From Catellatospora sichuanensis (lineage in GTDB: Bacteria; Actinomycetota; Actinomycetes; Mycobacteriales; Micromonosporaceae): 64,000 nucleotides of DNA. The stretch covers positions 248,001 through 312,000 of the forward strand of contig NZ_VIQO01000002.1 in NCBI RefSeq assembly GCF_007483665.1, given 5' to 3'. The notes under the pieces are model-generated. The model worked only from the letters and a program-made list of their open reading frames with translations, searched no databases and was not told the origin of the DNA. The translations under genes and the position numbers were made by a program. Positions within the stretch are counted from its first letter, which is position 1, and each line of letters begins with the position of its first letter. Shown here one piece after another: positions 380 to 57,115 of the stretch.

Positions 380-450
380 AATGTGTGGCGGCCCATCTCC
401 GGGGCCTCACCCGTGGGCGATGGCATCCACCTCGTGAAACCATCGACCCT

Positions 451-1698
451 GTGCAGCCCTCCGTGCCCGACTTCCCCCGCCTGACCCGCTCCCGTTCCGA
501 CCGCCTGGTCGCCGGGGTGGCCGGGGGCATCGCCGCGAACGTACGGCTGTCACCCACGCTGATCCGGATCGCCTTCGTGCTGCTGCTGCCGATCAACGGC
601 CTGGGCGCGCTGCTGTACGCCGCCTTCTGGGCCGTGCTGCCCGCCGGGCCGGGGGAGACCCGGCCCCGCTCGCTGCTGCGGCTGGCCCCCTTCGTGCTGG
701 CCGGGCTGGCGCTGATGACGATCAGCACGCTGATCAACCACAACGGCGGCATCGGGATGACCGTCGGCTGGCTGGTCGCCCTGGTCGCGGTCGGCGCGGG
801 CATCATCTGGCACCAGAGCGACCCGGACCGCCGCCAGCGCTGGTCCGACGAGTCGCCGTCGGCGCCCTGGCTGGCCGCCCTCTCCGACGGGGACCGCAGG
901 ATCTACCTGCTGCGTTTCCTGGCCGGCGGGGTGCTGGTCGCGGTGGGCATCCTCGGGCTGGTCTTCCTCTACTCCCCGGTCGCCAACGTCTCCTGGGCGG
1001 ACATGTGGCGGGCGATCGCGTTCGCGCTGGTGGCGCTCGCCGGGGTGGGCCTGGTGGCGGCGCCCGTGCTGTGGCGCACGCTGACCGCGCTGCGTGCCGA
1101 GCGCGAGGGCCGCATCCGCGAGCAGGAACGCGCGGAACTGGCCGCGATGGTGCACGACCAGGTGCTGCACACGCTCGCGCTGATCCAGCGCAACGCGGGC
1201 GACCCGGCGGCGGTGCAGCGCATCGCCCGCGGCCAGGAGCGCAGCCTGCGCAACTGGCTCTACCAGCCAACCGGTTCGCCGACCGAGCACTTCGCCGCGG
1301 CGCTCCAGCAGGCGGCCGCGGAGGTGGAGGACACCTACGGCATCGCGGTGGAGGCGGTGGTGGTGGGTGACCGCATGGTGGACGACAAGGTTTCCGCGAT
1401 CGTGGCCGCGGCGCGCGAGGCCCTGGTCAACGCGGCCCGCCACGCCAAGGTCAAGACCGTGTCGTTGTACGCCGAGGCGGAGCCGACCATGCTGAGCGTG
1501 TTCGTCCGCGACCGCGGCACCGGGTTCGACCTCAACGGCGTCGAGGAGCGGCGGCACGGCGTCCGTGGTTCGATCATCGGGCGCATGTCGCGGCACGGCG
1601 GCCAGGCGGAGATCCGCAGCGAGGTCGGCGAGGGCACCGAGGTCAGGCTGACCATGGCGGTCACCTCGCCGAAGGAGCCGAAGGAGACGCCGGCATGA
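451..1698 (+). CDS. PspC-fused sensor histidine kinase (MacS/NarX type)
   Basis: This membrane sensor kinase has about 415 residues. An N-terminal PspC domain (about residues 8-55, with LVAGVAGGIAANV and one membrane span) is followed by roughly four more hydrophobic spans up to about residue 210. The HisKA_3-type H-box MVHDQVLHTLALIQ carries the probable phosphorylated His235. A HATPase domain follows with N-box-like AREALVNAARHAK and the glycine box RDRGTGFDL. The start is taken as GTG 451, because the frame upstream lacks PspC-like sequence; GTG 463 is an alternative. The stop overlaps an ATG (ATGA at 1695-1698), which opens a chain of coupled micro-ORFs leading to the response regulator at 1979. 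The two genes form a two-component pair, probably sensing envelope state. Confidence 0.85.
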   Translation: MQPSVPDFPRLTRSRSDRLVAGVAGGIAANVRLSPTLIRIAFVLLLPINGLGALLYAAFWAVLPAGPGETRPRSLLRLAPFVLAGLALMTISTLINHNGGIGMTVGWLVALVAVGAGIIWHQSDPDRRQRWSDESPSAPWLAALSDGDRRIYLLRFLAGGVLVAVGILGLVFLYSPVANVSWADMWRAIAFALVALAGVGLVAAPVLWRTLTALRAEREGRIREQERAELAAMVHDQVLHTLALIQRNAGDPAAVQRIARGQERSLRNWLYQPTGSPTEHFAAALQQAAAEVEDTYGIAVEAVVVGDRMVDDKVSAIVAAAREALVNAARHAKVKTVSLYAEAEPTMLSVFVRDRGTGFDLNGVEERRHGVRGSIIGRMSRHGGQAEIRSEVGEGTEVRLTMAVTSPKEPKETPA

Positions 1699-1760
1699 GC
1701 GGGCGGCGGCAGGCACGACAGGCATCGGGCATGGGCGAGCGCAGCGAGGAGCGGTCATGA
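1695..1760 (+). CDS. Coupled micro-ORF 1 (21 aa) between kinase and regulator
   Basis: Its ATG overlaps the kinase stop as ATGA (1695-1698), and its TGA overlaps the next ATG as ATGA (1757-1760). The peptide is arginine-rich and ends MGERSEERS, the same tail as the repeats that follow. Its first 15 bases (1695-1709) match 2006-2020 within the regulator gene with one mismatch, so it may be the displaced original junction. Translation is predicted, not shown. Confidence 0.5.
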   Translation: MSGRRQARQASGMGERSEERS

Positions 1761-1834
1761 GCGAGCGCAGCGAGGCAATCGTGTGGCACGGGTTGGCTCA
1801 GGCATGTGACGAGCGCAGCGAGGAGCAGGCATGA
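1757..1834 (+). CDS. Coupled micro-ORF 2 (25 aa, repeat copy 1)
   Basis: The 25-residue peptide starts MSERSEAIVWHGLAQ and ends DERSEEQA. Start and stop both overlap neighbours as ATGA. GAGGAGC inside the codons just before the stop is positioned as the Shine-Dalgarno of the next ORF. It may be translated as a re-initiation relay rather than for its product. Confidence 0.5.
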   Translation: MSERSEAIVWHGLAQACDERSEEQA

Positions 1835-1908
1835 GCGAGCGCAGCGAGGGAATCGTGTGGCACGGGTTGGCTCAGGCATGTGACGAGCGCAGCGAGGAGC
1901 GGGCATGA
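1831..1908 (+). CDS. Coupled micro-ORF 3 (25 aa, repeat copy 2)
   Basis: The peptide starts MSERSEGIVWHGLAQ and ends DERSEERA. It differs from copy 1 at two positions only. The same ATGA overlaps occur at both ends. Confidence 0.5.
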   Translation: MSERSEGIVWHGLAQACDERSEERA

Positions 1909-1982
1909 GTGAGCGCAGCGAGGGAATCGTGTGGCACGGGTTGGCTCAGGCATGTGACGAGCGCAGCGAGGAGCGGGCATGA
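1905..1982 (+). CDS. Coupled micro-ORF 4 (25 aa, repeat copy 3)
   Basis: The peptide is the same as copy 2, with a synonymous AGT for AGC at codon 2. Its stop overlaps the ATG of the response regulator (1979) as ATGA, so regulator translation may depend on ribosomes passing through the chain. Confidence 0.5.
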   Translation: MSERSEGIVWHGLAQACDERSEERA

Positions 1983-24779: not shown

Positions 24780-24890
24780 ACGGCCCTGTTCCCGTGCCGG
24801 GATCGGCGGGGAATGGAACGCGACAGCGTGCGGCGAGCGGACCACGGGGTCGGCGGCTCAGGCCGGCCCTGAACGTAGCGAGGAGAAGGC

Positions 24891-24965
24891 ATGAGCGAGC
24901 CTGGCGAGCGAATCATCAGGCTGGTGGCCCATGCCTTCGACGAGCGGAGCGAGGAGAAGGCATGA
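24891..24965 (+). CDS. MIRU-like micro-ORF (24 aa) coupled to purH
   Basis: This peptide begins [16 protein letters not shown] and ends DERSEEKA, clearly the same design as the 25-aa repeats at 1757-1982 although much of the DNA between has diverged. GAGGAGAAGGC precedes both this ATG and the purH ATG. Its TGA overlaps the purH start as ATGA (24962-24965). Sequence just before it (CGTAGCGAGGAGAAGGC) looks like the end of another unit. A role in re-initiation at purH is inferred. Confidence 0.5.
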
Positions 24966-54448: not shown

Positions 54449-54514
54449 GCCCCTGAGGGTACGCAGAATCGGACAGAAATCTGAGTGCCTGCTTTCGGGG
54501 GAAGGGGCGACCTG

Positions 54515-57115
54515 ATGAACAGGACGCGTTTCGGCATCGCGGTCACCGTCACCATGTCCACGCTGGCCTCGGCCGTGCTGCTGGGTCTGGTGGCGGGGCG
54601 GTTGTCCGCGCCACCGACGCGGGTCACCGTGTCCGAGGACTCGTACACGATGAGTACCCAGCCCGGCGTCACCGCCGGCGGCCGGCTCTACCTCACCGCG
54701 GGTGGGGTGGGCGGCGGTGCGGCGGTCAGCTACCTCAAGTTCGACGTCAAGCTGCCGACCGGCCGCCAGCCGAAGAAGGTCTGGCTGTGGCTCGGCCGGC
54801 ACAGCGGCCCGCTGCCCCGGCTGGTCGAGCTGACCAGCGTCCCCGACACCCGCTGGCGGGAGGGCACCCTCACCGCCGCCACCGCGCCGCGGCTGGGCAG
54901 CGTGGTGGGCAGCGTCGCGCCCGGCCGGTTCGACCGGGCAGTCGCCTTCGACGTCACCCGCGTCATCCGCCGTTCCGGCCGGTACGCCTTCGCGGTCACC
55001 GCGCCGAGCAGCACCGAGATCGCCCAGTTCGTGGCGGGTGAAGCCGGTGCCGAGAGCACCACCACCGGCCCGCCGACCATCACCTTCGAGTGGCAGGCGC
55101 CCGCCTCGCCGACTCTGCCGCCGCTGGTCGACCAGCCCACGATCGCGCCGAGCCCGTCCGGGACGCCCGAGCCGGAGCCCACCGTGACGCCGTGGCCGGG
55201 CACGACGTTCGACCCGAGCGCGACGCCCATGCCGTCCACCGCGCCCGAACCGTCGATCCCGGCCGACCCGGTGACCGACCCGAGCCCGGTGCCGACCGGC
55301 ACCTACGCCACCGACCCGGTCTACGAACCCGAGCCGAGCCTGCCGGACCCGAGCGCCGCGCCGACCGACCCGGGCCAGCCCGGCGATCCCGGCCCGTCGA
55401 CCGGTCCCGAGCCCGGCACCGAACCGGTCCCCAGCACCGAGCCCGGCCAGCAGCCCAGCCCGGACCCGGCCACCGAGCCGAGCCCCGATCCGGGCACGCA
55501 ACCCGGTGACCCGGGCACGGAACCGGGACCCGGCACCGAGCCCAGCGCGGGCCCCGACCCGGGCACCCCGCCAGGCCCCGACCCGGGCCCCGGCACCGAA
55601 CCCGGCCCTGCGCCCGGCCCTGGCCCTGGCCCGGGCCCCGACCCCGGCCAGCCCGATCCCGGCACCGAGCCGGGCCCAGAGCCGAGCCCCGGCTTCCCGC
55701 CGGTGACCGACCCGACCGAGCCGCCCGTGACCGACCCGACCGAGCCGCCGGTCACGGACCCGACCGAGCCGCCCGTGACTGACCCGACCGAGCCGCCGGT
55801 CACGGACCCGACCGAGCCGCCCGTGACCGACCCGACCGAGCCGCCGGTCACGGACCCGACCGAGCCGCCCGTGACTGACCCGACCGAACCGCCGGTCACG
55901 GACCCGACCGAGCCGCCCGTGACTGACCCGAGCCTGCCGCCGGTCACCGACCCGACCGTCCCTCCGGGCACGGACCCGAGCACGCCGCCGGGCACGGACC
56001 CGAGCGCGCCGCCGGGCACGGACCCGAGCGCGCCGCCGGGCACGGACCCGAGCGCGCCGCCCAGCACCGACCCGAGCGCGCCGCCGGTGCCGGACCCGAG
56101 CGCGAGCCCGACCGTGCCGCCGGCCTCGCCCTCCCCGTCGACGGACCCGAATCTGCCGGTGGACTGCGTTATCGGGCAGGCCCTGGTGCCCACCTGCGGG
56201 GCGCTCTGGGGCGTCGCGCCGGGCGCGCACACCTCGCAGAACCGCATCCAGGCGCTGTACGAGTTCGAGCGGCGCACCAACCGCCGACAGGTCGTGTACC
56301 ACGCGTACCACCGCGGCACCTCGCTGTTCCCGACCCCGGAGGAGCTGTCCATCACCAAGGACGCGCTGCACAAGCGGGTGCTGTTCCTCAACTGGAAGCC
56401 GCAGGGCGTCAGCTGGGCCGGCATCGCCCGGGGCGACGGGCGCACCGAGGCGTACCTGGACCGGCTGGCCGTACACATCCGCGGCTCGCTGCAGGACCAG
56501 TTCTTCTTCACGATGAACCACGAGCCGGAGAACGACGTCAACCCGCGGCCGGGCTCCGGGATGACCGCGCAGGACTACGCGGCGGCCTTCCGGCACGTCG
56601 TCACCGGGCTGCGGGCCCGCGGCGTGAACAACCTGGTCTCGGTGATGTGCTACATGGCGTTCGTGCCGTGGAACGTCAAGGACTGGTTCGAGGACCTGTA
56701 TCCCGGTGACGACGTGGTGGACTGGGTCGCCTGGGACACCTACGCCTACAGCGACCCGGGCTACGGCTACGGCGACTTCGCGGAGATGATGAACCGCAAG
56801 TCGGGCAGCCGCAAGGACTGGCCGGGCTTCTACAACTGGGCCGCGACGTCCTTCCCGGACAAGCCGCTGATGCTGGGCGAGTGGGGGGTGTGGCACTCCC
56901 GGTCCAACCCGCAGCACCAGGCGCGGTTCTTCGACTCGGCCCGGCTGCAGCTGGAGCTTTTCCCACGGCTGAAGGCGCTGGTCTACTTCGAGTCGCCCAG
57001 CGCCGAGGAGGGCCGCAGCTCGATGATCGACATGACCTCGACCGGGCTGGCGTCGTTCCAGCAGTTCAGCAAGCATCCGGCGTTCGACATCACGACCGGA
57101 CCCGTCGGCTACTGA
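54515..57115 (+). CDS. Secreted multi-domain GH26-like glycoside hydrolase
   Basis: This 866-residue exported enzyme has a signal peptide or anchor (about residues 5-30) followed by a beta-sandwich DNRLRE/CBM96-like domain (about 35-190, with SYLKFDVKL, WREGTLTAA and VAFDVTRVIRR). A proline/threonine/aspartate-rich linker of about 355 residues contains the octapeptide repeats at 55700-55930. The C-terminal catalytic domain (about 550-866) has FFTMNHEPEN with the acid/base Glu670, and LMLGEWGVWHS with the nucleophile Glu789. It probably hydrolyses or remodels a beta-linked polysaccharide at the cell surface. ATG 54515 is preceded by GAAGGGG. It is divergent from the Wzz-like gene and convergent with the APS kinase gene. 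Confidence 0.87.
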   Translation: MNRTRFGIAVTVTMSTLASAVLLGLVAGRLSAPPTRVTVSEDSYTMSTQPGVTAGGRLYLTAGGVGGGAAVSYLKFDVKLPTGRQPKKVWLWLGRHSGPLPRLVELTSVPDTRWREGTLTAATAPRLGSVVGSVAPGRFDRAVAFDVTRVIRRSGRYAFAVTAPSSTEIAQFVAGEAGAESTTTGPPTITFEWQAPASPTLPPLVDQPTIAPSPSGTPEPEPTVTPWPGTTFDPSATPMPSTAPEPSIPADPVTDPSPVPTGTYATDPVYEPEPSLPDPSAAPTDPGQPGDPGPSTGPEPGTEPVPSTEPGQQPSPDPATEPSPDPGTQPGDPGTEPGPGTEPSAGPDPGTPPGPDPGPGTEPGPAPGPGPGPGPDPGQPDPGTEPGPEPSPGFPPVTDPTEPPVTDPTEPPVTDPTEPPVTDPTEPPVTDPTEPPVTDPTEPPVTDPTEPPVTDPTEPPVTDPTEPPVTDPSLPPVTDPTVPPGTDPSTPPGTDPSAPPGTDPSAPPGTDPSAPPSTDPSAPPVPDPSASPTVPPASPSPSTDPNLPVDCVIGQALVPTCGALWGVAPGAHTSQNRIQALYEFERRTNRRQVVYHAYHRGTSLFPTPEELSITKDALHKRVLFLNWKPQGVSWAGIARGDGRTEAYLDRLAVHIRGSLQDQFFFTMNHEPENDVNPRPGSGMTAQDYAAAFRHVVTGLRARGVNNLVSVMCYMAFVPWNVKDWFEDLYPGDDVVDWVAWDTYAYSDPGYGYGDFAEMMNRKSGSRKDWPGFYNWAATSFPDKPLMLGEWGVWHSRSNPQHQARFFDSARLQLELFPRLKALVYFESPSAEEGRSSMIDMTSTGLASFQQFSKHPAFDITTGPVGY
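55700..55930 (+). repeat. 24-bp tandem repeat encoding PPVTDPTE
   Basis: About nine or ten copies of an 8-codon unit lie in a row. Alternate copies differ at synonymous sites (CCCGTGACYGACCCGACCGAG versus CCGGTCACGGACCCGACC...), giving a 48-bp higher-order unit, a sign of recent paired duplication. Less regular DPSAPPGT repeats follow to about 56100. Confidence 0.9.

Follow-up and report, generated by a model that had tools for sequence, protein, structure and literature searches.

The presence of a chain of coupled micro-ORFs between a sensor kinase gene and the gene of its response regulator in Catellatospora sichuanensis raises the question of what such micro-ORFs are, whether they belong to this two-component system alone, and what they may do to the expression of the genes that they join. 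The features concerned, in the window (the whole stretch of 64,000 nucleotides that was analysed), are as follows, where G002, G005 and G010 are genomes of the same genus:

385..1698, + strand: PspC-domain sensor kinase with a HATPase domain (Pfam PF04024 and PF02518 on 451-1695), start uncertain, stop overlapping micro-ORF 1
1695..1760, + strand: micro-ORF 1, a degenerate unit of 21 aa with a 62-bp step, a similar 5′ half being present in G002, G005 and G010
1757..1834, + strand: micro-ORF 2, 74-bp unit, 25 aa
1757..1779, + strand: 5′ module of unit 2, start codon and GAGC-GCA-GCGAG, the outer stem being imperfect in this array (G, not C, at position 19)
1808..1825, + strand: 3′ core of unit 2, GACGAGC-GCA-GCGAGGAG, hairpin-like, containing the Shine-Dalgarno-like GAGGAG, with further copies at 1734 (1 mismatch), 1882 and 1956
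1831..1908, + strand: micro-ORF 3, 74-bp unit, 25 aa
1905..1982, + strand: micro-ORF 4, 74-bp unit, 25 aa
1979..2653, + strand: NarL/LuxR-type response regulator, 1979-2005 probably a fused unit remnant, alternative start at 2006

The consecutive ATGA overlaps by which the preliminary description linked the kinase stop, four micro-ORFs and the regulator start were indeed found at 1695, 1757, 1831, 1905 and 1979, the kinase TGA (1696-1698) lying inside the first and the regulator ATG at the fifth. The same description gave every unit as 74 bp with 25 codons, which is correct for units 2 to 4, whereas unit 1 is 62 bp in length, encodes 21 aa and has a different 5′ half. Tandem Repeats Finder returned a period of 74 with 3.7 copies and a 95% match, and units 2 to 4 differ from one another at 1 to 3 of 74 bases. 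Each unit carries, as described, a Shine-Dalgarno-like GAGGAGC, which forms the 3′ edge of the core GACGAGCGNAGCGAGGAG at 1734, 1808, 1882 and 1956. With up to two mismatches, ATGAGCGAGCGCAGCGAG occurs 5 times in the window as compared to 0.02 expected, a number reached by none of 100 shuffles. As the first 27 bases of the regulator (1979-2005) look by eye like an extra truncated unit fused in frame, the true regulator start may be the ATG at 2006.

The purN-purH interval of the window also holds an intact unit and a decayed one, absent from the preliminary description, and here the upstream coupling has been lost:

24828..24890, + strand: decayed unit 3′ of purN, matched by the unit model (C2:272828-272894, E 4.2e-8)
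24891..24965, + strand: 71-bp unit with a 24-aa micro-ORF before purH, its TGA overlapping the purH start codon at 24962

Across the 9.45-Mb genome the array region gave 41 DNA matches, and the bare 12-mer GAGCGCAGCGAG occurred exactly 113 times as compared to 3 times for its reversed control. A sequence-only model, R1, was constructed from 24 units, all taken from junctions and thus biasing it toward the recovery of more junction units; it gave at least 152 matches at E 0.01 (150 candidates scored). Around the matches in this genome 153 overlapping loci (713 kb) were fetched, which contain 128 3′ motifs deviating at no more than two bases by substitution, followed by RTGA exactly 5 nt on in 118 cases, at another spacing in 5 and not within 14 nt in 5, while looser anchors (at most four substitutions) numbered 290 and were mostly due to chance. 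The 123 RTGA-bearing motifs resolve into 97 chains (80 single, 11 double, 3 triple and 3 quadruple), of which 93 enter an ORF of at least 80 codons directly and 96 do so within 90 nt, against a background, in this GC-rich window, of 336 ORF starts of that size at 774 RTGA sites (43%). A model-free test of 107 distinct exact 12-mers in the fetched loci placed 34 after a start codon, 53 in the 24 nt preceding an ORF start (80 codons or longer), 12 inside arrays and 8 elsewhere, so that 99 of the 107 distinct GAGCGCAGCGAG occurrences in these fetched parts of the genome lie at a start codon or in an array, in line with the enrichment proposed earlier. Ten genes sampled 3′ of units were of mixed kinds, with a Pfam match in 8, and included ABC transporters, an oligopeptide permease, FUR, a hydrolase and DUFs; as the same units precede these unrelated genes and purH, a special role in two-component systems is unlikely. 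A subfamily of units ending about GACGGAGCCGAGCGNAGCGAGGTG was seen at five loci (L036, L212, L226, L248 and L266), which suggests that more than one unit lineage exists within one genome.

In the 58 chains for which the first-unit step could be measured, the 39 of 97 without a recognisable 5′ module being left out, it was 3n+2 in 55, 3n in 2 and 3n+1 in 1. Among the matches listed, full-model matches (closing TGA counted) were divisible by three in 39 of 41 cases in this genome and in 69 of 71 in congeners and other genera of the family. Steps are mostly 68, 71 or 74 bp here and 77 or 80 bp in other Micromonosporaceae, which indicates that indels happen, mostly in threes. Openness alone is a weak sign, as a 20-codon stretch is free of stops in frame 0 in 97, in frame +1 in 63 and in frame +2 in 56 of the 97 chains. 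Upstream of the first RTGA, the frame that closes there extends over 60 codons or more in 45 of the 58 chains, although this is a weak test of an upstream gene, as 25% of all RTGA sites in the window behave likewise and micro-ORF frames can themselves stay open far upstream.

Filled and empty sites were then compared between this genome and ten genus-mates, including Catellatospora paridis, vulcania and coxensis. The orthologous kinase/regulator junction holds four micro-ORFs here, two in G004 and one each in G002, G003, G005 and G010, the latter single micro-ORFs being of 16 to 37 aa and partly fused or degenerate; it is a bare ATGA overlap in G001 and G006, while in G007, G008 and G009 a TAG and a gap are present without overlap. 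Copy number, which it was suggested may vary between strains, ranges from 0 to 4 micro-ORFs among the 11 genomes, that is, between species. In none of the six occupied genomes is the chain of stop-start overlaps between kinase and regulator interrupted. At a second locus (B, downstream protein L003:1715-2455) a bare ATGA overlap is found in 7 of the 11 genomes and the remaining four are occupied, by three 24-aa micro-ORFs in this genome, one of 24 aa in G002, one of 18 aa in G004 and one of 21 aa in G005, where the 62-nt step is 9 shorter; all four chains run unbroken to the downstream start. Locus B was read forward in the frame of the upstream gene, backward reading from starts being ambiguous because micro-ORF frames stay open upstream. 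The bare ATGA of some species, together with the unbroken occupied chains, indicates that units insert at pre-existing RTGA overlaps and remain translatable, as judged by comparison of these sequences. A target duplication beyond RTGA was also sought between element ends and the downstream gene (72 chains, 28 positions, re-pairing control) and none was clear: base 1 (P 0.006), -4 (0.0095), -1 (0.0105), and base 14 and -5 (0.03) exceeded the controls (minus denoting upstream) and the other positions did not, a signal that is weak given the many positions tested.

Mycobacterial interspersed repetitive units (MIRUs), reportedly described by Supply in 1997, are a long-used typing marker to which the units had been likened. 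MIRUs are described as apparently mobile and inserting at start codons with -4 nt coupling (PMC12548453), as occupying 41 locations in H37Rv (PMC2734929) and, in that strain, as including three 77-bp units (PMC4213456); the literature consulted gives no account of their origin or mover. The MIRU-like design was supported, in that RTGA insertion, a coupled ORF, and tandem as well as dispersed copies were all seen; the resemblance extends to a short unit with RTGA at both ends, a position between kinase and regulator, a 3n+2 length (53 bp for the MIRU in L356; 77 bp according to PMC4213456), bare RTGA sites in related species and the common 3′ core GAGCGNAGCGA. The present units differ in carrying an extra 5′ module, RTGAGCGAGC-NNN-GCGAGCGAAY, in usually ending 5 nt after the core, and in forming 97 chains as compared to the 41 H37Rv locations stated in PMC2734929.

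Stretches around senX3-regX3 were drawn from 26 genomes of the genus of M. gordonae, chosen by size out of 396, some of them ending before regX3, and the mycobacterial units in them were recognised as MIRUs by place and size rather than by a named record. They comprise 53-bp tandem units in L356, a mixed array in L373, leprae-like single units in L376 and L380, and shorter micro-ORFs or remnants elsewhere, with bare RTGA in L362, L369, L374 and L378. When R1 was run unfiltered on these surroundings (95.7 kb), it returned 90 matches to E 5, of which ranks 1 to 6 were all MIRUs, at marginal and roughly calibrated E values of 0.0086 to 0.059 and aligned over the 3′ half only; rank 7 (L379, E 0.24) is also in MIRU position but ties with background, and the MIRU-like remnants in L357, L375 and L376 are not near the top. 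These six best matches, for all their modest E values, make it doubtful that the element is independent, as had been suggested. Since RTGA ends, a coupled ORF and the 3′ core are shared with the senX3-regX3 MIRUs, the units are probably a variant of the MIRU type to which a 5′ module has been added, and not independent of MIRUs; convergence is possible, as the likeness is confined to the 3′ half, the E values are marginal, rank 7 ties with background and other phyla have the same 18-mer as a hairpin tip. The senX3-regX3 junctions of L360, L361, L364, L366 to L368 and L375 likewise showed MIRU-like micro-ORFs or remnants, a wider occurrence than that given in PMC4213456, where MIRUs at this junction are said to be restricted to M. 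leprae and the M. tuberculosis complex.

We propose, with a probability of about 0.7, that the units are non-autonomous MIRU-type repeats with a particular niche for insertion, the RTGA at which stop and start overlap (or the RTG start) in genes of the same direction, the ribosome relay outlined here included. The term MIRU-type is used because the host is a Catellatospora and not a Mycobacterium, the genus to which the name was originally applied. Sense orientation at start codons, keeping of the frame, tandem arrays, and presence or absence between species are established by comparison at the level of sequence. Each unit begins and ends on RTGA and nearly always retains an open frame with a 3n+2 step, so that a ribosome reaching the kinase stop could start anew on one micro-ORF after another and finally on the regulator. 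The micro-ORFs would be translated and passed by termination-reinitiation, fresh initiation may be limited by hairpins holding the start codon and Shine-Dalgarno sequence, the element could persist by being nearly transparent to expression, and extra copies may slightly lower regulator output through imperfect reinitiation. We infer the relay from this layout and from the general finding (PMC12548453) that overlaps of -4 nt couple well.

Tandem copies might instead have been selected as a rheostat setting the kinase/regulator ratio by stepwise loss of reinitiation. Such a role would agree with the differing copy number between species at this junction and with the modest link between repeat length and fpg1 mRNA in M. 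tuberculosis strains (PMC2734929), yet it appears unlikely, as the same units precede transporters, FUR, a hydrolase, other genes and purH, and the kinase/regulator junction is devoid of units in 5 of the 11 genomes. Because the units are scattered over genes of unrelated kinds and some junctions are empty, we favour tolerated passengers over a dedicated rheostat. Local replication slippage of a start-codon sequence without any mobility would account for near-identical units arrayed within one locus, and slippage is likely the cause of the tandem arrays; as an account of the units themselves it is exceedingly improbable, as 97 chains at separate places have the same ends and full units occupy, in some species, sites that are a bare ATGA in others. 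For the MIRU-type repeats proposed here, some 100 places per genome, bare sites in sister species and host organisms not known to be pathogenic render the mover, the ribosome relay and the effect of copy number testable.

For the 5′ module, RTGA-GC-GA-GC-NNN-GC-GA-GC-GA-AY, a putative hairpin with the start codon at its foot can be drawn (pairs 1-23, 2-22, 5-19, 6-18, 9-15 and 10-14, with G.A between). Such 5′ segments were found at 67 of the 123 anchors; of the 44 distinct ones, 37 to 43 have a standard or wobble match at each proposed pair, as compared to 0 to 10 for control pairs with the exception of the off-register pair 5-23 (41, via G-T). When all loci were pooled, giving 65 distinct 23-mers, bases 1 and 23 were seen to covary (A-T 42, G-C 12, A-C 5, G-T 2, other 4; Fisher P 2.6e-7 for the 61 in the two-by-two table, shared descent uncorrected). 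As the 23-mers were partly chosen by the fixed G.A positions and pairs 9-15 and 10-14, the free tests are only 1-23, 2-22, 5-19 and 6-18, of which 5-19 is poor (52 G-C, 2 C-G and 11 unpaired of 65). The change at base 23 converts Ile to Thr in the peptide, which makes a peptide reason for the covariation unlikely, and the loop (positions 11-13) takes 28 different triplets in the 65 segments. In the 3′ core, taken as GAGC-loop-GCGAGG with any loop allowed, GNA was found in 93 of 111 contexts of this genome, 30 of 32 of other Catellatospora, 29 of 29 of other Micromonosporaceae and 12 of 17 of the rest, a share inflated by loci mostly drawn by GNA-favouring patterns or model and by several Micromonosporaceae loci representing one orthologous site. 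A GNNA loop, unasked by the search pattern, was present in 8 of 8 contexts from two genomes of another family of the same order. According to PMC4686876, extraordinarily stable DNA mini-hairpins are formed by loops of the GNA or GNNA type that sit on two or more G-C pairs. The N is also synonymous in the ERSE frame, so that GNA alone cannot distinguish DNA structure from coding, a distinction better served by the GNNA version, whose peptide is different.

A functional small peptide with a 20-residue consensus would explain why the frame is kept open and why most of the 97 chains have ERSE and DERSEE in common. It is nevertheless very improbable: the 5′ variation falls on the would-be hairpin loop at positions 11-13 and alters codons 4 and 5, and in the two genomes of the other family the 3′ motif is one base longer and five peptides end EPSASE.., EPSGSE.., QPSASE.. 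or APSASE.. instead of DERSEE. Standard energy models gave no excess folding stability (RNA z -0.14 to 0.56, DNA z 0.44 to 2.16), the 3′ 30-mer as DNA folded worse than 200 of 200 shuffles, and in the ATG version the most favourable fold, as RNA and as DNA, has CATGA paired with TCATG, off the proposed register. Either these adverse energies argue against hairpins or the energy models handle G.A pairs poorly. Two hairpin-like motifs rather than the peptide seem to be conserved, with covariation and loop pattern for this and folding energies against it, which suggests that hairpin-like ends and an open frame are what is maintained.

REP/RAYT and IS200/IS605-derived elements have one-strand hairpin-like ends, a fixed tetranucleotide and no terminal inverted repeat, features that the present units, with their putative hairpins, would share. 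A single-strand DNA element of this type, with one-strand hairpins at both ends and RTGA as target tetranucleotide, would fit the layout, the covariation of base 1 (the target R) with base 23, and the agreement of the GNA/GNNA loops with the stable mini-hairpin rule (PMC4686876). It remains a doubtful reading, as DNA folding energies speak against hairpins and the stretch around the only Y1 transposase found in this genome is without GAGCNNNGCGAG; in addition, and unlike in the known elements, no matching transposase was found in this genome in a search of the Y1 family, and insertion is tied to start codons and frame. The Y1 transposase rejected as mover was the sole PF01797 match in the genome (L289), with a tnpB-like neighbour, and its 3363-base stretch contains no GAGCNNNGCGAG.

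At 1e-5, R1 matched 157 of 250 Micromonosporaceae genomes in 26 of 44 genera (19 candidates scored per genome). In 15 named genomes at 1e-3, among the matches listed, hits fell in C. paridis (140), C. coxensis (117), C. vulcania (87), Plantactinospora endophytica (30), Geodermatophilus siccatus (28), Gordonia namibiensis (16), Micromonospora phytophila (14), Nocardioides sp. B-3 (13), a Sporichthya MAG (11), Saccharothrix sp. (9), a Sporichthyaceae MAG (8), Microbispora corallina (6) and Mycobacterium gordonae (1), with 0 matches in Microbacterium sp. and Amycolatopsis coloradensis. Among the few loci read, those of Microbispora, Sporichthyaceae, Geodermatophilus and some other taxa also run from RTGA to RTGA, while different surroundings were seen for the 18-mers initially detected in Gordonia, Nocardioides and Microbacterium. 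A phylum-wide search at 1e-6 returned 3 of 396 genomes, the host included, and was insensitive, as 12 candidates were scored per genome and a known carrier (G013) was missed. Titles and abstract openings in the literature revealed no such elements outside mycobacteria, and, although 46 papers contain one or more of six motif strings, the titles of the 40 listed are unrelated. A broader proposal, which we regard as speculative and improbable, would be a widespread actinobacterial class of "translation-transparent" mobile elements, bounded by RTGA, with mini-hairpin ends of the d(GC-GNA-GC) type, moving as single-stranded DNA, in which RTGA would be recognised through pairing to the element's own GAAY, stop-start overlaps would be a private niche and MIRUs would be shortened descendants or cousins.

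In Gordonia, Nocardioides and Microbacterium, other repeats surround the core (L110, L117, L119, L126, L097 and L151), several of the form GTTGAG..GACGAGCGNAGCGAGGAG..CGAAAC. By eye, the GACGAGCGNAGCGAGGAG 18-mer was also seen as a cross-phylum hairpin tip at L083, L085, L111, L132 and L140, inside archaeal palindromes, some adjoining tRNA-like sequence, and in repetitive DNA from Chloroflexota, Acidobacteriota and Bacteroidota. The 18-mer core of these tips is identical to that of the present units, but, again by eye, they often lie in long palindromes, some in haloarchaea by tRNA-like sequence, unlike the units at gene starts described here. A repeat of another kind in the window is a 24-bp tandem array of about 17 copies (55697-56116), 9 of them encoding exact PPVTDPTE, in the gene of an 876-aa protein (54485-57115).
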